Assembly: GCF_000430005.1 (NCBI RefSeq)
Contig: NZ_AUCY01000038.1
Span: 1-33,931 of the forward strand
Source of the DNA: Desulfovibrio cuneatus DSM 11391
GTDB lineage: Bacteria; Desulfobacterota; Desulfovibrionia; Desulfovibrionales; Desulfovibrionaceae
Direction of reading: 5' to 3'
DNA length: 33,931 nucleotides
Shown: positions 5,995 through 24,025 of the stretch, piece by piece
Numbering within the stretch: position 1 is the stretch's first letter
How the letters are laid out: each line of letters begins with the position of its first letter
Position numbers and translations under genes: made by a program
The notes under the pieces: generated by a model
The model's database searches: none
What the model saw: the letters and a program-made list of their open reading frames with translations, nothing else
What the model was told of the DNA's origin: nothing

Positions 5995-6773
5995 TGCAAA
6001 ACATCCTGCATGGAATACAGCTTGCCCGCAGGTTGTTGCTGCAACCACAGGGCTGCACGCAAGGCACCACCAACAAAATTCTCCCGCGAATGGGCCTGGT
6101 GGGTCACTTCAACGCGTTCCCCCGGCCCCATAAAGTACAGGGTATGCACCCCCACCACATCGCCGCCGCGCAATGTTTGAATGCCAATTTCCCTTTTTGG
6201 ACGCTCCCCAATAATGCCCTCACGGTGGTAGCAGGCGGTTTCCGCCAGGGGCCAGTCACGCGCTTCGGCCACACATTCCGCAAGGTGCAGGGCAGTGCCG
6301 CTGGGGGCATCTTTTTTGCGGTTGTGGTGAATTTCCATAAGCTCCATATCGTAATCCGGGCCAAGCAAGCGCACCAGCTCTGGCAACACCTTGAGCAGGG
6401 CATTTATCCCCAGGCTCATGTTGGGCGACCAAAAAATAGGCGTTTTCTGGGCCAACACTTCCAGGGTGGCGCGTTCTTCTTTTGTCAGCCCGGTGGTGCC
6501 AATAATGTGCCGTGCCCCGGCAGCCACGGCAGCATGGGCCGTGTGCAGGCTGCTGGCAGGGGAAGTAAAATCAATAATGGTGGCCCCCGGCACGCTGGCC
6601 AGCACTTGCTGTACCTGGCTGGATGCAGGGCAGCCAAGGGTTTTGGCTTCTTCCAGTTTTTCTTCGCGATCCACTACCCCGGCAAGGGTAAATGCGGGGT
6701 TTTCCCGCACGGCACGCACAAGCATGGAACCCATTCTGCCCATTGCCCCCATAATAATTACTGGAACTGCCAT
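5991..6773 (-). CDS. dapB: 4-hydroxy-tetrahydrodipicolinate reductase
   Basis: DapB reduces 4-hydroxy-tetrahydrodipicolinate with NAD(P)H in the lysine and diaminopimelate pathway, so it feeds peptidoglycan synthesis. The 260-residue length is typical. Visible motifs are the nucleotide-binding IIMGAMGRMGS at 6-16 and the substrate signature EIHHNRKKDAPSGTA near 150-163. The first ATG follows GGGAGG at good spacing. It is the first gene of a two-gene unit with nadE, and a family B repeat lies upstream in the same orientation, so that element could be part of its leader RNA. Confidence 0.97.
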   Translation of the reverse strand: MAVPVIIMGAMGRMGSMLVRAVRENPAFTLAGVVDREEKLEEAKTLGCPASSQVQQVLASVPGATIIDFTSPASSLHTAHAAVAAGARHIIGTTGLTKEERATLEVLAQKTPIFWSPNMSLGINALLKVLPELVRLLGPDYDMELMEIHHNRKKDAPSGTALHLAECVAEARDWPLAETACYHREGIIGERPKREIGIQTLRGGDVVGVHTLYFMGPGERVEVTHQAHSRENFVGGALRAALWLQQQPAGKLYSMQDVLQ

Positions 6774-6883
6774 AACAACCTCCCAAAACGGTTATAATAC
6801 TCAATGCGGTTACTGTAGAAAAAAATAGCTGGAATTACCAGCCCAAGCCGTGGGTATTCTTTTTAGGAATTTTTGACTGGGGG

Positions 6884-7007
6884 ACGCTGTCCCCCAAGCC
6901 CCCTGCAAGGGACGTGACGCCCCTTGACCCCCATTAGCGTTCAGCTTTTCGCATAGCGAAAAACTGAACGTAAAGGTGGGGTTCCAAGGGCATCATGCCC
7001 TTTAACG
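6884..7007 (-). repeat. Multi-hairpin repeat, family B copy 1
   Basis: On the minus strand this reads AAGGGCATGATGCCCTT, then a central hairpin GTTCAGTTTTTCGC-TAT-GCGAAAAGCTGAAC, then GGGGGTCAAGGGG..., then GGGGGACAGCGTCCCCC. The order matches copies at 14214-14377 and 28054-28219, but the central stem has a different sequence with pairing kept. The first GGGGAGGC hairpin is missing here. The rest of 6774-7167 holds the dapB leader and an AT-rich stretch with no gene I can support. Confidence 0.75.
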
Positions 7008-7167
7008 TACTGTTCAATAAAATTCCAGATTGTGCAATTTTTTTGCTGTCAATGGTTTTATGGCTACTTTTGTCCAAAATTGAACCGCAAAAAGCGTTGC
7101 AACCCTAAGCTATGTTGAGTGTCTTTTTGAGTACGCAATATGCACATACTCAATGAGAGGGGGGGCA

Positions 7168-7515
7168 ATGTTTACTGCAAAGCAAGAGCAGAGCAAGCGT
7201 TTTGAGTTTACGGTACGTTTTCTTGAAACCGTCAAGGTCACGGACAAGGAAGAACGCTACACCGATGCTAAAACGCCATGGCTTACTTTAGCGGTGAAGC
7301 CTTCCAAGCGCAAGAAGGAAGGTACAAAGCTCTGGCGTTTTCGGTACATGGTAGATGGTGAAGCGCAGATGATTTCCTTGGGTGTTTATCCTACCGTGTC
7401 CTTAAAGAATGCCAGAGGCAAAGCCCATAACGTGCGCAAGATGCTGGACAAGGGACTTGACCCTTCCCAAAAGCGGCGACTGCCTGCCATTACCGCCCTG
7501 GAGCAGGCTGCATAG
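7168..7515 (+). pseudogene. Truncated tyrosine-recombinase integrase, N-terminal arm-binding domain only
   Basis: The 115 residues match the DUF4102 N-terminal domain of P4-type integrases: YTDAKTPWLTLAVKPS, then LWRFRYMVDGEAQMISLGVY, then PTVSLKNARGKAHNVRKML and DKGLDP. The core-binding and catalytic domains, which should follow for about 280 more residues with R-H-R-Y, are absent. I place the start at 7168 because the G-rich run between 7153 and 7168 fits a ribosome binding site; ATG 7153 is the alternative. It is most likely a relic of the element that brought in the island to its right. Confidence 0.8.
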
Positions 7516-7655
7516 TGTATTCTTTTCATGCAGGCCTGACTTTACAATTCTTACCTCTCTACTACCACGCTTATTATTCCTTGGAAGGTATGCGCCATTG
7601 TGCACCATGCCTTCCTCTTTTTCTGTGCCCTTAGTCCTGAAAGGCATCATCTGCC

Positions 7656-7787
7656 ATGTCTAAAGTTCTGTCCTTCCCCCTTGTGATTCTTGGGGGTTGG
7701 GGCTGCGTATTCGCCCTGATGGGTTCAACGGGAAAGAAACGGGCAGAATGGCAGAGCAAATTTTGGCACAACGTTACCTGCAAATAG
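7656..7787 (+). CDS. Possible small hydrophobic protein
   Basis: This 43-residue frame begins MSKVLSFPLVILGGWGCVFALM, a single likely membrane segment, followed by a polar tail (GKKRAEWQSKFW). I do not recognise it. The only ribosome-binding-like sequence, AAAGG, is rather far upstream, so it may not be translated. It lies in the 7516-7858 gap between the integrase fragment and the regulator, which otherwise holds the AT-rich promoter region of the regulator. Confidence 0.3.
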   Translation: MSKVLSFPLVILGGWGCVFALMGSTGKKRAEWQSKFWHNVTCK

Positions 7788-7798
7788 AATTACATATT

Positions 7799-7827
7799 TT
7801 GACGTATTCAAAATGAGTATTTTTTAT
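7799..7827 (+). promoter_or_regulatory. Candidate sigma-70 promoter for the regulator cassette
   Basis: TTGACG at 7799-7804 and TTTTAT at 7822-7827 are 17 bases apart in a markedly AT-rich stretch. The site lies about 30 bases upstream of the regulator start, which itself has AGGAG 7 bases before its ATG. Confidence 0.45.
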
Positions 7828-7858
7828 TTATTATCAATTTAAACCGCAGGAGATATTT

Positions 7859-8309
7859 ATGACACATGCGCCCATGACCAAACGAGAGCGAGATATTCTA
7901 CGATATTTGGCTCAAGGTTTTTCCGATAAAAGTAATAGGGCAGTATTTGTACATAAGTCCCCATACTGTCAGTCGGCATATCCGTAATATATGCAAAAAA
8001 TGCAGCGCAGCAAACAGTGTGCATTTGATTTCTCTGTTTGCCGGAGTTTCTTGTCTTGCGCCATATCCTGGCCTTACCCGCAGAGAAAATCAAATTGTTT
8101 CCTTCTTGGCGCGTGGAATAATCCCGCACGCTATTGCCGAGGCAACAGGTATTTGTATTTCAACTGTGTATAAGCATCGTGAAAATATTCTGCTTAAACT
8201 CGAAGCGCACAGCACTCGTGAAGTGGTGGCATTGTTATATCAAGCCCAGAAACAGCAAGAGCAGAAAGCAAAAACGCATTATACAATCAAAATATCAAGT
8301 TACAGGTAG
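7859..8309 (+). pseudogene. Double LuxR-type HTH regulator with a frameshift
   Basis: The intact form would be about 150 residues with two GerE/LuxR-type HTH domains and no sensor domain. The first runs MTKRERDILRYLAQGFSDK | VIGQYLYISPHTVSRHIRNI; the second is LTRRENQIVSFLARG, then ISTVYKHRENILLKLEAHST. The reading frame changes between GFSDK and VIGQY, at the AAAA run 7928-7931. Read straight through, the ATG frame stops about 40 residues in, while the rest continues in the other frame to 8309 (a TTG at 7947 could start it). One extra A explains this. It could be a true mutation, slippage-controlled expression or a sequencing error. Its place directly upstream suggests it once regulated the DUF2589 cassette. 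Confidence 0.8.
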
Positions 8310-8358
8310 CCGTGTGCCCATGTTCATACTCATATAACAGCATAACTTCAAGGAACCC

Positions 8359-8955
8359 ATGATGCCGAATATCTCCTCCCTCAGCCAGTTGGTTACCGCC
8401 ATCTCCAGCGCAGTGTTGGAGGCACAGGAAAAGATTGAAGCCGCTCAGGTGGCTAACCTCATGAGTTACTTCAAGCGCAAGCCTGGGCACGCGGGTTTCT
8501 TCCCTGTAACCATGAAGGTGAACTTGCCTTCGCAACGGCCCGGAGCACCAGCCGGAAGCACAGAGGCTTACCGTGTGCCTTATTTGTCCGTATTGCCCTA
8601 CAGCGCGTTACGCATCAAAAAAGCGGATGTGGATTTTGATGTCAGCTTCAATTCCCTGGATATAGATGCTGGCGGTCTGCCGGATATGGATATTCAGGGC
8701 AGCAATTCCACACAACGTTCCCTGGAGCGGGCGGAACAACTGCCCAACCTGACCATTGATATGGGAGCCCATAAAAAAAGCGGCTCTTTTACGGCGCACG
8801 TCCAATTGACTCTGGAAGGGGTGGATTTGCCGGAAGGTGCGGCCCGCCTCATTAATGAATTGATAAAAACCAGCCAGACATATGAAAGCCCTGCTTCATC
8901 AGGTGGGGCAGCAGCGTCTTCCGCACAGGCTGCAAATGCAACATATGATGACTAA
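8359..8955 (+). CDS. DUF2589-like protein 1
   Basis: This 198-residue protein is soluble, has no signal peptide, and shows the layout I associate with DUF2589: a helical N-terminus (LSQLVTAISSAVLEAQEKIE), then a beta-rich part with paired hydrophobic strands (VPYLSVLPYSALRIKKADVD), then TAHVQLTLEGVDLPEGAARL near the C-terminus and an Ala/Ser-rich tail. Its biochemical function is unknown to me. AAGGA precedes two adjacent ATG codons (8359 and 8362); either may start. It shares the ending ...E-x-x-x-PEGxAR with the next gene, so the two are paralogues that probably act together. Confidence 0.8.
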   Translation: MMPNISSLSQLVTAISSAVLEAQEKIEAAQVANLMSYFKRKPGHAGFFPVTMKVNLPSQRPGAPAGSTEAYRVPYLSVLPYSALRIKKADVDFDVSFNSLDIDAGGLPDMDIQGSNSTQRSLERAEQLPNLTIDMGAHKKSGSFTAHVQLTLEGVDLPEGAARLINELIKTSQTYESPASSGGAAASSAQAANATYDD

Positions 8956-9014
8956 ACACACAAAAACGCTTGGTCGCGGAGCAAACGCAACCTGCAACAT
9001 AACGGAGATGCATC

Positions 9015-9758
9015 ATGTCAGAACTTGTATCAATGGGCGATCAATTCAAAGGGTTGCCCATGGGCGACCTTATTGGCGGCCCCTTGCGGGCTGCCTGCGA
9101 TTCGCAAATCCAACTGGCCAATGCCACAGCCGACTTCATTAAAGCCGTGGGTTTCATACCCAACAAAGATGGAGGCATGGGGCCTGTGAGAACGGCCTGC
9201 TTCCAGTACACAAAAATGATTCAGGGCAGCGACGGGACAGTGACCCCCTATAAGGCGGAGTTGAACGTGCCGCTTTTGGCCATCGTTAAAATTCCGTGCC
9301 TGGCGGTGAAAAAGGTAGACATCACCTTTGATATGGAAGTGAAGTCCTCCTTCAGCGAAAAGTCTTCGCTGGACGCATCAGCTAAATTATCCGCCTCGGC
9401 AAAATTCGGCTTTGGCCCCATCAGCGGTACGGTGAACATATCCGGCTCTGTCGCCAGCCATAAGGAAAATGCCCGGTCTTCAGACAATTCGGCAAAATAC
9501 CATGTGCAGGTACTGGCCGAAGATGAAGGCATGCCGGAAGGCCTTGCCAGAGTGCTGGATATTCTTCAAGCGTCTACCGAACCCATCTTGCTGGATAGTG
9601 AAGGCAAGGCGCTTGATGGCAACGGCAAAGCTATTATTGGGGCAATTCCCGGTACTCAGGATGCAGAAGGAAAAGAGCGCCAAGGCAGCAGCAAAGCCAT
9701 TGCGCAGCCCATGAAAGAAGTAACCGGGCAAGGGGCGCAAAGTTCTGCTTCTGCTTAG
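9015..9758 (+). CDS. DUF2589-like protein 2
   Basis: This 247-residue paralogue of the preceding gene has an N-terminal helix region (GGPLRAACDSQIQLANATAD), then VPLLAIVKIPCLAVKKVDIT, the strand-rich FDMEVKSSFSEKSS, a Ser/Ala-rich segment, and the family-like YHVQVLAEDEGMPEGLARVL. The C-terminal 60 residues are polar and low in complexity. There is no signal peptide or membrane segment. GGAG precedes the ATG at good spacing. The function is unknown; the repeated association with a muramidase downstream suggests a surface or lysis-related system, which is inference. Confidence 0.8.
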   Translation: MSELVSMGDQFKGLPMGDLIGGPLRAACDSQIQLANATADFIKAVGFIPNKDGGMGPVRTACFQYTKMIQGSDGTVTPYKAELNVPLLAIVKIPCLAVKKVDITFDMEVKSSFSEKSSLDASAKLSASAKFGFGPISGTVNISGSVASHKENARSSDNSAKYHVQVLAEDEGMPEGLARVLDILQASTEPILLDSEGKALDGNGKAIIGAIPGTQDAEGKERQGSSKAIAQPMKEVTGQGAQSSASA

Positions 9759-9841
9759 TCCTTCAAGCCATTCCCTTACATAGTCCCGGCGGCAGTACAT
9801 TCACCCCATAGCCACGACCAGGCGCTTTGCCGTCGGGATTT

Positions 9842-9866
9842 GGGCAATTGCACGTTGCAATTGCCC
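9842..9866. repeat. Perfect 11-bp inverted repeat
   Basis: GGGCAATTGCA, loop CGT, TGCAATTGCCC. It lies in the 241-base gap between the second DUF2589 gene and the next small gene. No T-run follows on either strand, so it is not a classical terminator. It may be an operator or an mRNA hairpin that protects or separates the two halves of the cassette. Confidence 0.6.
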
Positions 9867-9999
9867 GGTGCGCGCGCAGCGGGCACCCGCACAGCGTGTC
9901 ATTGTATGTTGTCCTTTTTCTGAATGTTTGAAGAAAATCAATGCCCTTGCAAAATACGCATGGCTATTTTTTAAGCCAAACTGTTCTGGGAGCGTTACC

Positions 10000-10260
10000 A
10001 TGAGCCTGACATTCGACCTCAGCACAATACGCTTCATAAAGCGCATCTCCGTTGGCAGCAGCAACCCCGCCAACCCGGAAGGGGAAGCGGAAATAGAAGC
10101 TGCCACGGAACTGCTAAACCGCTGCCTGAATGAAACGCCGCGCGGCGTCATTCTGGGTATAGAGAAAAACTTCGGCTTGTTCAACTTGGGCGAGCACCAG
10201 GTGGTGTTGCAGTGGATGGTCTACCATGTGGGCTTTCCGCGCAAACCCGGATGGTTGTAA
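10000..10260 (+). CDS. Small protein of unknown function in the DUF2589 cassette
   Basis: The 86-residue product (starting MSLTFDLSTIRFIKRISVG) is soluble, with the segment GVILGIEKNFGLFNLGEHQV and no recognised motif. GGGAG lies before ATG 10000, which decides this start over an upstream in-frame ATG at 9868. The next gene follows after 47 bases. It is small and acidic to neutral, with no signal peptide. Confidence 0.7.
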   Translation: MSLTFDLSTIRFIKRISVGSSNPANPEGEAEIEAATELLNRCLNETPRGVILGIEKNFGLFNLGEHQVVLQWMVYHVGFPRKPGWL

Positions 10261-10307
10261 TAAGTTGGCCTTGAAAAAGGCCGGCATCAACAAGTAAGGA
10301 GGCGGCG

Positions 10308-10697
10308 ATGCGCACGGCAACCCTTGCTACAGAAACGCTTGCGGAATACTTGCGGCGGCTGGCTGTTGCAGAAAATCTGCGCTTAGTCAAAAGCTGGCGC
10401 ATGCGTTTGTGCGCGCTGGCCCAACGCTGCGACCCTTTTGCCGCGCAAGCGTTGTGTGGTGAACATGGGCCGCGCATCAGCCGTCTGTTTATGGAAATAG
10501 CCTGCTTCGAGCGTGTGCCGCTGGGCTTTCTTCTGTCTGAAAAGGAACTTCCTGCCGCGCCCCTTTCCCGGCTTACTCTGGGTGCCCCCGGTGTGCTACG
10601 GCGCTGGCTCAACCTATACCGTCCGCATACCCTGTGCATTGAAGTCTCCCTGCACGGGGTAGATGCCGCAGTGCGGGTATTCCTGAAGAAACGCTGA
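10308..10697 (+). CDS. Small unknown protein whose stop lies in a repeat
   Basis: This 129-residue, Arg- and Leu-rich protein (YLRRLAVAENLRLVKSWRMR) has no motif I recognise. A strong AAGGAGG precedes the ATG. The last codons, AAG AAA CGC TGA, coincide with the first bases of the family A repeat (GAAACGCTGA...), so the repeat supplies the end of the gene. The original C-terminus may have been longer or different. Confidence 0.65.
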   Translation: MRTATLATETLAEYLRRLAVAENLRLVKSWRMRLCALAQRCDPFAAQALCGEHGPRISRLFMEIACFERVPLGFLLSEKELPAAPLSRLTLGAPGVLRRWLNLYRPHTLCIEVSLHGVDAAVRVFLKKR

Positions 10698-10984
10698 TTT
10701 ATTCCGTTTGGCTGCGTTACTCGCTAAAGCCGACAGCAGTCGCGAGCATAGCGAGCCGTGGAGTGACAAGGCGGGCGTAGGCGGCTTTGCCGCCGAAGTA
10801 TGAATCCCGCCGCAAGAGCGGAGAAATGAAACAGTCGAGGACGGAAGAGTTGACTCGGCCCGTCCTGGGCCTCGGCCTTCGGCTCCCGCCCTTTGGGTGG
10901 GTCCCAATTCTGCTTTCCTGCAGAATTGTCACTCCTGCTTCAAAAAAAACTTGTGCCTTGCCAAACGAAATAACTGCGCGTTTC
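10688..10984. repeat. Family A terminal-inverted-repeat element with family D insert
   Basis: The left end GAAACGCTGATTTATTCCGT is mirrored at the right end by CCAAACGAAATAACTGCGCG TTTC. Inside is a family D module (TCGCGAGCATAGCGAGCCG, about 10735-10753) and the GAGGACGGAAGAG segment common to other copies. No coding capacity of its own is evident. It fills most of the 10698-11027 gap. Confidence 0.7.
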
Positions 10985-11027
10985 AACAATGCCATTTAAA
11001 CCGAAAACAGCACAAAAGGAGCAGAAA

Positions 11028-11369
11028 ATGAATAATTTCGAGCAGTTCACAAAACAATGGTTGACGGCTTTGCTTGTGTGCCTCGTTCTTGCCCTTACGG
11101 CCTGTGGGCCAGATACCTCGAAAGTGCTGGCCCATGCTCCAAAGCCCGACACATTGGCGAGCCAGGCAAGCGGCGGGTACAACCCTGCCATGCCCGAGGG
11201 CCAGGTACTGGTTGCGGCTTCCGCCGCCAATGCCTACCGTTGCTACACAGTGAACAACTGCCGCAGTAATTATACTTCCGGTGTGCCCACAGCCCAAGCG
11301 TGTAGCGAGTTGGGCGGCAACAGTTGGACAGATAAAAATGGCACATGCATTGCCAACATTGGCGAATAA
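11028..11369 (+). CDS. Small cysteine-rich lipoprotein
   Basis: The 113-residue precursor has a hydrophobic signal (WLTALLVCLVLALTAC) with lipobox LTAC and lipidated Cys26. The mature part is Ala/Pro-rich and ends in a domain with four cysteines (YRCYTVNNCRS, AQACSELGG, GTCIANIGE) that could form two disulphides. AAAAGGAG precedes ATG 11028. It stands directly before the muramidase gene (21 bases), so an outer-membrane-linked or spanin-like role in cell-wall release is possible but unproven. Confidence 0.75.
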   Translation: MNNFEQFTKQWLTALLVCLVLALTACGPDTSKVLAHAPKPDTLASQASGGYNPAMPEGQVLVAASAANAYRCYTVNNCRSNYTSGVPTAQACSELGGNSWTDKNGTCIANIGE

Positions 11370-11390
11370 TTGCAGCCCAAGGAGTTTCTC

Positions 11391-11993
11391 ATGCCTCAAC
11401 CACCATTAACCTGGGAAGACATTACCCGTGCTGCTGCCGATTTGGGCATTGAACCATGCACCATGCAGGCCGTGTGCACGGTGGAATCCGCCGGAAACGG
11501 CTTTTTACCTTCGGGCCGGGCCAAAATTCTGTTTGAAGGGCACATTTTCTGGCGTGAATTGAAAAAACGGGGCGTACCCCCGGAAGACTATGCCGAGGCC
11601 CACCCCACCGTGCTGTACCCCAAATGGACAAAGGCCCATTACCTGGGCGGGGAAAAAGAACATGATCGCCTGAATGAAGCCAAAAATATTCAGGAAGAAG
11701 CGGCGTTGGCTTCCGCTTCCTGGGGGGCGTTCCAGATTATGGGATTCAACCACGCCGCGTGCGGCTATGCCACGGTGCGCGAGTTTGTGCACGCCCAGGA
11801 ACAAGACCCCATAACCCAACTGGAGGCGTTTTGCGGCTTCATTCGCACTAACAACCTGGTGCGGCACTTGAAAAACCACGATTGGGCCGCCTTTGCCAAA
11901 GGCTACAACGGGCCGGGGTATGGGCAGAACAGGTATGATGAAAAACTGGCAGGGGAATATGCGAAGTGTTTGGAAAGAAGTGCGCATGGGTAA
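11391..11993 (+). CDS. N-acetylmuramidase (DUF3380-type endolysin)
   Basis: This 200-residue peptidoglycan hydrolase has the family signature near residue 28: VCTVESAGNGFLPSGRAKIL, then FEGHIFW. E32 is the likely catalytic glutamate. SWGAFQIMGFNHAACGY and KGYNGPGYGQNRYDEKL are also typical. There is no signal peptide, so export needs a holin-like partner, lysis or a secretion system. The ATG at 11391 follows AAGGAG, and is preferred over the TTG at 11370. Similar enzymes serve as phage endolysins. Here it sits within the DUF2589 cassette, not next to tail genes. Confidence 0.9.
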   Translation: MPQPPLTWEDITRAAADLGIEPCTMQAVCTVESAGNGFLPSGRAKILFEGHIFWRELKKRGVPPEDYAEAHPTVLYPKWTKAHYLGGEKEHDRLNEAKNIQEEAALASASWGAFQIMGFNHAACGYATVREFVHAQEQDPITQLEAFCGFIRTNNLVRHLKNHDWAAFAKGYNGPGYGQNRYDEKLAGEYAKCLERSAHG

Positions 11994-12058
11994 TTCCGGA
12001 CGCATGTAAAGCCATAACCTGCACGGCAACAGTAAGTGCAAACTACAAGGAGAATGTT

Positions 12059-12532
12059 ATGCGTATTCAAAGAACGAACGGTGAGTACTTGATTCTTGGA
12101 CATGGCAGCTACCCGGAGGGAGAGGCTGAGTGGTTTGGTGAGTTTACCGCCCCTGAAGGCATCGAACTGATCCTTTTGGCTGTGCCCAACGCCGCCGTAA
12201 AGATACGGCTTGGTCAAGCCATGGTGAACAATGAAATCTGCGACCTATGTTTGCGTGAACGAACAACCAGCGAAATCAAGGACGCCAACTACACCCCGCG
12301 TACGTACAGGGCGGACGAGCAAGTTCCCTCTTACCGTTTGCAGCATGCTCCGGAAATTCGGGTTGATGGCGCAACGGGAATCATTTCTCCGTCAATAGGG
12401 GGAAATGCGGCTTACTTGGCAGATTTAGTCAGGCAAATCCCTGTGCGACAAGGAAAAACAACACGTTGTTATGTGGCCTGTTGCGCTGGGTTGCAGGGTG
12501 CAACAATTCGCTATTCTGTGGACCTCAAATAG
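12059..12532 (+). CDS. Protein with a possible caspase-like His/Cys pair
   Basis: The 157-residue product begins MRIQRTNGEYLILGHGSYPE and ends with CYVACCAGLQGATIRYSVDL. A hydrophobic strand ending in His-Gly (H15), then a second strand ending in Ala-Cys-Cys-Ala-Gly (C141/C142), recalls the His and Cys positions of caspase-fold proteins, including the putative adhesin Stv type. This is weak motif evidence. There is no signal peptide. AAGGAG precedes the ATG. It is the last gene of the plus-strand island; beyond it lie repeats and core genes. Confidence 0.7.
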   Translation: MRIQRTNGEYLILGHGSYPEGEAEWFGEFTAPEGIELILLAVPNAAVKIRLGQAMVNNEICDLCLRERTTSEIKDANYTPRTYRADEQVPSYRLQHAPEIRVDGATGIISPSIGGNAAYLADLVRQIPVRQGKTTRCYVACCAGLQGATIRYSVDLK

Positions 12533-12589
12533 CCCTAGTGTGCTGCCTTTGTATATTACAATTCAGTAGAGCGAAGGTAAGCCTTTTAT

Positions 12590-12840
12590 TCTCAACAATG
12601 AAGATGGATTGCCACGCGGCGTTGCCGCCCGCAATGACAAAAGCGAAAGTATTGCATCGTGGCAAGAAAAGTGCCCCTGCGCAGGCAGGAATCCAGTATT
12701 CTTAGCATGTTAGGCTGTCTTATGCGTGTGGCAAGTGGAAATGGGTAAAAGCAAAAGACACAATACTGGCCCCCTGCCTGCGCAGGGGCGACGGTGCTAT
12801 GGCAATGGCACGCCGCACAAACTCACGCGCTACCGCTCTT
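12590..12840. repeat. Inverted pair of REP-like family C units
   Basis: GCCCCTGCGCAGGCAGGAAT plus CCAGTATT (about 12668-12700, plus strand) faces AATACTGGCCCCCTGCC plus TGCGCAGGGGCGACGGTGCT (about 12762-12797). The second is followed by GGCACGCCGCACAAACTCAC, as at 4201-4230. Together they occupy most of the 12533-12852 gap between the island and rimO and could form a large stem-loop. No gene is seen here. Confidence 0.7.
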
Positions 12841-12852
12841 AAAAACTCCCCC

Positions 12853-14163
12853 TCATTCCCCCTCCTCCGCATTCACCAGCGCCACCAGATCATACGTTTG
12901 TGCTTCGGTAATTTCTGCCTGCACCAGCGCGCCGGGGGCCGCGCCCGGCCCACTGATATACGTTACCCCGTCGCTTTCCGGGGCCTGGAACCAGGCCCTT
13001 CCGGTGAACAGCCCCGGCCATTCCCCTTGCGGGGCATCCACAAGAATATCCATGGTTTGCCCAACGTATTGTTGCAGCAGTTCTTCGCTGATATCGGCCT
13101 GAATTTCCATTAACGCATCGCGCCGCCACTGTTTTTCTCTATCTGGAATCTGGTCTGGCATGGTGGCGGCAGGGGTGCCTTCTTCCTGCTGGTAGGCAAA
13201 CACTCCCAGGTGGTGGAAGCGCGTGGCCTGCACAAAGTCGCACAGTTCCTGAAAGTCTTTTTCCGTTTCACCGGGAAAGCCCACAATAATACTGGTGCGC
13301 AGGGCTGCCTGCGGAAAGAATTCCCGCACCCGTTCCACCGCGGCGCGGGGGTTTTGGGCAAAGGGGCGGCCCATGCGTTGCAGCACGTTTTTGGAAGCAT
13401 GCTGCAAGGGAATGTCAAAATAAGGTACAAAAGGCTTGCCTGCTTCCTGCAAAAAGGAAAGCAGCGGGCGGGTAAGCCCGGCGGGGTACAGGTACATCAG
13501 GCGCAGCCGTTCCAGCCCCGGCAGGGGCAGCAGTTTTTCCAGCAGGCGTTTTAAGCCGCCGCTTTTGCCAAGGTCGCGCCCCCAGGAGGTGACGTCCTGG
13601 GCTACCAGCACAAGCTCTTTTATGCCGCTGTGCACAAGGCCTGCGGCTTCTTCCACCAGCATGGCTTCCGGGTGGCTTGTCAGGGGGCCGCGTATGGCAG
13701 GAATGGTGCAAAAGGAACAGGCATGGCGGCAGCCGTCGCTAATTTTCAGCCAGGCGTAAGAAGGCCCGGTGGAGGCAAAACGCCCTTCCGGGGCAGGGCC
13801 AAGGCCCAGCTTTTGGCACAGCATTTCCGCCCAGTTGGCAAGGTCGCGGTTGTCCAGAAACAGGTCTACCTCTGGCAGGTCCGGGGCCAGGTCTTTGGCC
13901 CCGTAGCGGCCCACAAGGCAGCCTGCCACGGCAATAAAGGGGCGCTTGGCCTTGGGCTGGGTGCCTGCGGCTTCAATGGCTTCCAGAATGGTGCGGACAG
14001 ATTCTTCCACCGCAGGGCCAATAAACCCGCAGGTGTTAATGAAAATAAGCTCGGCAGCTTCTGGTGTTTCCACCATGCGTACAGGGCCAATGCTGCCAAG
14101 AGTGCGTTCCGTGTCTACCCGGTTTTTGGGGCAGCCAAGGCTGGTTGAATAAATACGAAGCAC
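12853..14163 (-). CDS. rimO: Ribosomal protein S12 methylthiotransferase
   Basis: RimO adds a methylthio group to an aspartate of ribosomal protein S12 through radical SAM chemistry. The 436-residue product shows the N-terminal UPF0004 motif (STSLGCPKNRVDTE), the radical SAM cluster CRHACSFC near 140-148, GFPGETEKDF, and a C-terminal TRAM region. The GTG at 14163 is preferred as start because AAGGA lies 6 bases upstream and the protein then begins with LRIYSTSLGCPKN, as in the family. Upstream lies a family B repeat and then galE on the same strand. Confidence 0.95.
   Translation of the reverse strand: MLRIYSTSLGCPKNRVDTERTLGSIGPVRMVETPEAAELIFINTCGFIGPAVEESVRTILEAIEAAGTQPKAKRPFIAVAGCLVGRYGAKDLAPDLPEVDLFLDNRDLANWAEMLCQKLGLGPAPEGRFASTGPSYAWLKISDGCRHACSFCTIPAIRGPLTSHPEAMLVEEAAGLVHSGIKELVLVAQDVTSWGRDLGKSGGLKRLLEKLLPLPGLERLRLMYLYPAGLTRPLLSFLQEAGKPFVPYFDIPLQHASKNVLQRMGRPFAQNPRAAVERVREFFPQAALRTSIIVGFPGETEKDFQELCDFVQATRFHHLGVFAYQQEEGTPAATMPDQIPDREKQWRRDALMEIQADISEELLQQYVGQTMDILVDAPQGEWPGLFTGRAWFQAPESDGVTYISGPGAAPGALVQAEITEAQTYDLVALVNAEEGE

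Positions 14164-23948: not shown

Positions 23949-24025
<77 letters not shown>

Follow-up and report, generated by a model that had tools for sequence, protein, structure and literature searches.

The stretch of DNA analysed here (the window) comprises 33,931 nucleotides of Desulfovibrio cuneatus DSM 11391 (NZ_AUCY01000038.1, contig 33 of a 3.36-Mb draft genome). It holds a cassette at positions 7859–12532, all of whose genes lie on the + strand, in an interval bounded by a dapB-like and a rimO-like gene, both identified by eye from the protein sequences. The cassette begins with a regulator that carries two LuxR/GerE-type helix-turn-helix (HTH) domains. Two proteins of the DUF2589 family follow, D1 (8359–8955) and D2 (9015–9758), which score 80.3 and 153.4 bits respectively against PF11655 (curated cut-off 23). 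Next are U1 (10000–10260), an 86-residue protein without a Pfam or PHROG match, and the small protein U2 (10308–10697), with no Pfam match of its own. The remaining genes encode a Cys-containing lipoprotein-like protein (11028–11369), with an LTAC lipobox read directly at its signal, an endolysin-type N-acetylmuramidase in which no signal peptide is seen by eye (11391–11993; PF11860, 227.2 bits; phrog_1224 endolysin, E = 3.3e-76), and a protein (12059–12532) with an Stv domain (PF21527, 30.7 bits against a cut-off of 24.2). Just upstream lies an integrase relic (7153–7515), a 120-residue N-terminus whose sole Pfam family is the arm-binding domain Arm-DNA-bind_3 (60.8 bits).

An earlier note, made from the letters of this DNA alone, had placed the cassette at exactly these coordinates and on this strand. 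Its two DUF2589 proteins, two small unknown proteins, Cys-containing lipoprotein, N-acetylmuramidase without signal peptide and adjoining integrase relic are all borne out by the searches. Two things were overlooked in it: that D1, D2 and U1 recur together elsewhere, and that the double-HTH regulator, described as one gene, is not a single open reading frame (ORF).

The DUF2589 core and its cell-wall hydrolases

Of 235 candidate stretches from the genome collection, 216 contained relatives of D2. The 88 loci compared, once four duplicates had been dropped, come from the best 80 of these, seven from the search of the window's own family and the window itself. Gene calling was weighted by homology, naive longest-ORF calling having been dropped since it picked antisense ORFs. 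D2 was recognised in 87 of the 88 loci, by construction, U1 in 82 and D1 in 80, and U1 shares 42–72% identity with each of the 42 further rows in its alignment. By these comparisons the conserved core consists of D1, D2 and U1, a trio found in more than one phylum. A variant layout was seen in L112, L114 and L117 (Eubacterium, Agathobacter and Oscillospiraceae), which have two D2-type proteins and U1 with no recognised D1.

Sixty of the 88 loci also hold one of four unrelated hydrolase clusters, in every case within 5 kb of D2 and on the same strand: GH108 in 26 loci, GH19 in 23, a PG_binding_1-type cluster in seven and PF11860 in four, each cluster being named from one or two representatives. 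The hydrolase family differs from lineage to lineage while D1, D2 and U1 stay constant. In a control that covered 43 loci, 121 proteins near the core were compared with 121 proteins at least 6 kb away. The near set contained GH19 (nine), GH108 (five), PG_binding_1 (three), GH24 (one), GH25 (one) and GerE (seven), and none of these was among the 25 of 122 families listed for the far set. PHROGs gave the same picture, with endolysin and holin families near the core and none far from it among the 25 of 74 families listed. On gene content, then, the cell-wall hydrolases that accompany the core are phage-type and interchangeable, and the DUF2589 gene set is recurrent across bacteria beside hydrolases that keep changing. 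For DUF2589, which is scarcely named in the literature searched, the trio and its interchangeable hydrolases offer a concrete functional lead; a passage of PMC3949148 reports DUF2589 genes of Archaeoglobus as up-regulated on lactate.

The distribution of DUF2589 is patchy. In the window's family 12 of 288 genomes gave a match and in its phylum 11 of 395; matches were also obtained in 9 of 399 and 1 of 199 genomes of two other families, in 5 of 16 of one genus and in 1 of 37 of the family of Smac51, each sample including at least one genome already known to be positive. In the window's genome D1 and D2 are the only two DUF2589 matches. The D2 query matched 4 of 72,556 plasmid records and, distantly, 1 of 50,697 phage records. 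Among the contigs called viral in IMG/VR there is a group (L175–L195, contigs of up to 73 kb) with DUF2589 proteins that are alike and 52–54% identical to D2, in which tblastn finds no U1, and D1 in just one; these are either phage-borne or misclassified contigs.

A regulator gene in two frames

The regulator of the window is two ORFs. The first, preceded at 6 nt by an AGGAG Shine–Dalgarno sequence read directly at 7848–7852, opens at ATG 7859 and occupies 7859–7987, with 42 codons and a stop at 7985–7987; its first 24 codons are those that complete HTH1. The second (7929–8309; GerE, 58.5 bits) is in the +1 frame and encodes the remainder of HTH1 and HTH2 in full. HTH1 is completed only through a +1 shift at 7928–7931, an AAA_A site at which the zero frame reads GAT AAA AGT, and joining the halves adds 20 bits to the HTH1 score of the window's copy (L203). 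Without the join the gene does not have the two complete HTH domains in a single frame that define a LuxR/GerE tandem-HTH protein. A split at the same codon is present at two other DUF2589 loci, on the Smac51 plasmid (L038) and in a Desulfovibrio metagenome-assembled genome (L085, the same gene as L202).

A profile of the C-terminal halves of these three genes was run on 285 genomes of the Desulfovibrionaceae, the family to which the window belongs, and matched 44 places in 41 genomes, namely 25 tandem-HTH places (22 genomes) and 19 single-HTH places whose frames of 226–323 residues have no stop. Six of the 25 tandem matches contain one stop codon; five of the six can be joined, and the joined protein holds both HTHs ahead of that stop. 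Together with L038 the tandem places make a set of 26, and 25 of these (24 places in 21 genomes, plus L038) are joined by a +1 shift at AAA_A. The exception is L222 on the − strand, a tandem-HTH relative in which no first half could be located; it is possibly a decayed or different member of the family.

In all 25 joined genes the site lies 21 to 23 codons past the start and has AAA as its zero-frame codon, with A as the next base; the zero-frame codon that follows reads AGN in 18 genes and AAA in seven. Over the 20 codons up to the site a stop occurs in none of the 25 zero frames as against 23 of the 25 in the frame of the C-terminal half; over the 30 codons past it, in none of the +1 frames as against 22 of the 25 zero frames. 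This openness is partly built in, the C-terminal halves having been found by open matches and the starts sought in an open zero frame, and the sequence identities are not so affected. Mean pairwise identity before the site is 0.363 in the expected frame versus 0.238 and 0.214 in the others, and after the site 0.382 versus 0.192 and 0.186. When scored with an HTH model derived from four HTH domains of other genes, the join raised the score in 25 of 25 cases (mean 16.1 bits, minimum 5.5). The marks of a programmed +1 frameshift gene, namely the same site, the same direction and conservation of both halves, are thus present in 25 of the 26, a count that exceeds the number of independent events because L210/L211 and L218/L219 encode identical proteins and others are close kin.

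The +1 frameshift of these regulators is conserved and apparently programmed. Because the gene is split at a conserved +1 site, the whole two-HTH protein requires that reading slip from one AAA to the AAA that overlaps it, and ribosomal slippage is very likely the mechanism that joins the halves. Two points speak against this: no conspicuous RNA structure was found at the shift site (mean z of −0.29 downstream), and runs of 8 or 9 A, at the sites that have them, might instead be explained by slippage during transcription. It is very unlikely that the first part is a separate leader peptide and that the C-terminal half starts on its own. Overlapping frames would permit translational coupling, but the C-terminal half has no consistent start codon across the 25 (the position of the first ATG, GTG or TTG varies between 14 codons upstream and 60 codons downstream of the site, and two genes have none within 80 codons), and what HTH1 lacks at its start is supplied by the first part, as the mean gain on joining indicates. 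That the window's regulator is simply broken, as a pseudogene or by sequencing error, is scarcely credible: a single-base discrepancy in one genome would give the same picture, and L222 has lost or never had its first half, but for the family the idea is contradicted by the split at one codon, with both halves conserved, in 21 genomes and one plasmid.

A similar arrangement has been described for FseA (msi172–msi171), the transcription activator of the excision gene of ICEMlSymR7A, which passages of PMC10359603 and PMC5009743 present as two ORFs joined by a programmed +1 frameshift and as an example of split genes that are often misannotated. As in that case, so far as those passages describe it, two ORFs are joined to give a +1-gated regulator on an integrative element. 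Unlike FseA, which is composed of DUF6499 and DUF2285, the tandem-HTH regulators have two LuxR/GerE HTHs, with the shift inside HTH1 at AAA_A, and a scan of the C-terminal half gave GerE and other HTH models and neither DUF6499 nor DUF2285. Judged from its domains, the regulator works like FseA without being a member of the FseA family. In the literature searched, to which subscription papers are mostly external, no apt prior account of such split regulators was found among the titles listed. A word search of the GeneTack study (PMC3711429) gives none of the words LuxR, helix-turn-helix, Desulfovibrio and integrase, and the searched part of the review PMC5009743 mentions FseA and has no occurrence of LuxR, helix-turn-helix or Desulfovibrio.

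Frameshift-split regulator genes are easily taken for pseudogenes. The gene prfB is a well-characterised bacterial programmed +1 frameshift, and to our knowledge there are few others; two dozen or so regulators that would shift at one exact codon constitute a new and directly testable example.

Of the 23 tandem places away from DUF2589, 20 (L232–L251) were compared over wide regions. An integrase cluster lies near the regulator in 16 of the 20, an excisionase-like gene of ∼102 residues (HTH_17) in 13, a relaxase in three and a ParA-like gene in three. Representatives that scored above the cut-off were PF00589 (two, tyrosine integrase), PF12728 HTH_17 (two, just above), PF03432 relaxase (one) and CbiA (one). 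With integrases, excisionase-like genes and relaxases as its neighbours, the regulator family belongs largely to integrative, in some cases mobilizable, elements. The AAA_A shift was seen in the Desulfovibrionaceae and in one cockroach-gut deltaproteobacterium. Within 183 genomes of the phylum there were two matches at E = 1e-14, one in the window's genome and the other in a genome from the same family, and a search of IMG/VR for the +1 regulator did not find it.

Tandem HTHs were also sought at the DUF2589 loci themselves, 88 in one scan and 42 in another. Eight loci have such genes, which are split by +1 in the window, L038 and L085, split by −1 in L086, L087 and L109, and in one frame in L054 and L169; LuxR-type genes are present in 32 of the 88 loci. 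The −1 split falls between HTH1 and HTH2 (L086, − strand, 13250–13950; L087, − strand, 13400–13990; L109, 6850–7400). In all three genes an in-phase C_CCA_AAN heptamer lies within the stretch where both frames are open, and the overlap of L109 additionally holds G_GGA_AAA. Among genes of at least 150 residues from eight betaproteobacterial-type loci, C_CCA_AAN occurred at 4 of 42,725 codon positions and any such heptamer at 93. Heptamers of the form X_XXZ_ZZN are the sites of programmed −1 frameshifts in insertion sequence (IS) elements and dnaX, according to a passage of PMC4066793. The three genes are like these in their heptamer and unlike them in encoding tandem-HTH regulators, not a transposase or DnaX. 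On this evidence the −1 split is a second, convergent split of the regulator.

A proposed lysis-linked cassette and its rivals

Taken together, the gene content of the locus most likely represents a regulated lysis or release (or antagonism) cassette beside the remains of a mobile element. The best explanation in particular, to which we give somewhat less than an even chance, is a mobile-element-associated, lysis-linked release cassette. In this model a fraction of ribosomes would shift at AAA_A to give low or conditional amounts of the double-HTH activator, which would switch on the downstream genes. D1, D2, U1 and perhaps U2, in none of which a signal peptide is seen by eye, would assemble in the cytoplasm. 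The muramidase would then open the wall, and the producer would lyse or leak, setting free the assembly along with whatever effector is encoded beside it; the lipoprotein and the Stv protein would be accessories with a part in self-protection or maturation. An integrative element is the probable source of the regulator, which it either gave up or left behind; a truncated integrase is found just upstream. It is likely that the joined regulator activates the cassette, and lysis or release by the cassette is about an even matter.

The earlier note had proposed self-lysis, release or antagonism, and release or antagonism gains support, as a class, from the hydrolases, the holin-like genes of nine loci and the EndoU nuclease genes of seven. 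It had further made the grouping depend on DUF2589 genes occurring elsewhere with the muramidase or the His/Cys protein, and they do, with PF11860 at four of the 88 loci and with Stv nearby in L109 and L169. A number of observations weigh against the proposed release cassette. No holin match was obtained for any of the nine window proteins scanned (7153–12532), and the match of the lipoprotein to a spanin family is not significant (E = 0.1). None of the four hydrolase clusters is present in 28 of the 88 loci, and the 60 that have one overstate the number of independent events because several loci are closely related (about ten are Xanthomonas). In the near/far comparison the near set is drawn from D2's strand only and the far set from both strands, and single far hydrolases could hide outside the 25 of 122 families listed. 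Of the 26 tandem-HTH genes only three are neighbours of DUF2589 (the window, L038 and L202); conversely, just eight DUF2589 loci of those scanned have a tandem-HTH gene, two of these in one frame. Relatives of D2 are also found on 28 IMG/VR contigs called viral. Finally, the 'assembly' of D1 and D2 is a guess, because the middling AlphaFold model of D2 (70 sequences; pLDDT 66.9, pTM 0.47) has no match at E = 0.001 in Foldseek among PDB structures and viral models.

The cassette may work like the Type 10 secretion or lysis cassettes of Salmonella and Yersinia entomophaga, in which phage-derived lysis genes are reported to free host proteins. Those cassettes are made up of a holin and a hydrolase. 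The window has the peptidoglycan hydrolase (PF11860); it differs from them, as reported, in having no recognised holin, in its DUF2589/U1 core and in a hydrolase family that varies by lineage. A non-lytic alternative follows what has been proposed for Type 10 secretion: the hydrolase would open the wall locally, a DUF2589 machine or cargo would cross, and the cell would survive. The same association of core and hydrolase fits such export, as do a holin-like cluster in nine of the 88 loci (named from one representative; phrog_2359, E = 1.7e-12) and, in 17 loci, a recurrent protein with the appearance by eye of a membrane protein. In the window itself, however, neither a holin nor an export partner was recognised, and the DUF2589 proteins do not have the look of membrane proteins by eye; export is possible but rather unlikely.

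Slightly less probable again is antagonism, in which D1, D2 and U1 with a hydrolase or nuclease would hit neighbouring cells and small co-encoded proteins would confer immunity. EndoU nuclease genes lie downstream of DUF2589 in seven loci (L056, L057, L058, L059, L065, L066 and L068), the three tested score above the cut-off, and in all seven the gene is followed by one conserved small-ORF cluster, so that the two are a candidate toxin–immunity pair. A small protein with a signal-peptide-like start, found in 41 of the 88 loci, also speaks for antagonism. Six of the seven EndoU loci, however, are from Pseudomonas, no toxin was recognised in the window, and no delivery part is known.

It is improbable that the cassette is a domesticated phage lysis module in which the muramidase alone matters and DUF2589 is a passenger. 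The hydrolases do resemble phage endolysins, an integrase relic adjoins, and the viral-labelled contigs with D2 relatives would fit. Against it, D1, D2 and U1 are constant across loci and the hydrolase is variable, and D2 has the single phage-record match given above. An ordinary prophage was set aside, as it had been in the earlier note: none of the nine proteins of 7153–12532 matches a tail, capsid or terminase gene, the strong matches being to an integrase piece, an HTH regulator and an endolysin. Known anti-phage defence was likewise rejected, with no PADLOC match at E = 0.01 for D1, D2, U1, U2, the lipoprotein, the muramidase or the Stv protein; the HTH of the regulator weakly matches CARF-protein models in that collection.

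A wider conjecture can be framed, which we regard as speculative and not very probable. DUF2589–U1 cassettes would be undescribed, cross-phylum, lysis-released protein assemblies, a tailless counterpart of tailocins, that recruit any endolysin at hand. In two or more lineages their regulators would independently have gained a frameshift gate (AAA_A with a +1 shift in genes of Desulfovibrionaceae type, C_CCA_AAN with a −1 shift in genes of betaproteobacterial type). Lysis, or excision of the element, would then be confined to rare cells or to those whose translation is in a particular state.

Accessory proteins and flanking sequence

The Stv protein had been described as a possible His/Cys protease-like, or caspase-like, protein, and the His and Cys positions expected of a caspase-like (clan CD) peptidase are conserved, G14, H15, G16 and C142 being invariant in four of four aligned Stv proteins. 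With the PF21527 match, the GHG...C pattern makes a His/Cys hydrolase a reasonable lead and a possible assignment. Above the cut-off Stv is also found near DUF2589 in L109, shortly past the core, and in L169, on the other strand ∼3.5 kb off, and elsewhere in L253; it occurs in 2 of 169 sampled genomes of the class of L109, one being L109's own. A model of the protein from four sequences (pLDDT 54.3) matched no chain at Z of at least 2 among 311 aligned, and so gave no confirmation of a caspase-like fold. Sequence searches of the PDB gave best E values of 0.75 for D2 and 0.23 for the Stv protein, and no match for U1.

U2 has a homologue at the equivalent place in L038 (E = 3.7e-12), and the protein at the corresponding place in L099 has a DUF2589 match below the cut-off (E = 0.0011). 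From this one sub-threshold match and the position, U2 is possibly a third, degenerate DUF2589-type protein. The lipoprotein has a weak homologue (E = 8.5e-4) upstream of the muramidase gene of L038, with one ORF between. The cassette muramidase spans positions 2–173 of the 175 of PF11860, and is thus a whole-domain member; its phrog_1224-type endolysin family is filed in PHROGs under head and packaging. A second PF11860 muramidase gene of the same genome lies away from DUF2589 on contig 12 (L037:6894–7493), and its product is 51% identical to the cassette muramidase over the matched part.

An empty insertion site could not be demonstrated because dapB and rimO gave no tblastn match in loci L026–L117. 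No direct repeats of at least 16 bases were found in 6700–12900. Promoter-like matches in 7500–12800 numbered 3 against 4.2 expected from shuffles, and terminator-like matches 11 against 8.1 (SD 2.2), both near shuffle level. The sole find of tRNA and Rfam scans of the window was a tRNA-Arg at 23949–24025. Directly 3′ of the cassette, at 12673–12789, lies an imperfect inverted repeat with 28-nt arms and a 61-nt spacer, possibly a small mobile repeat or a terminator.

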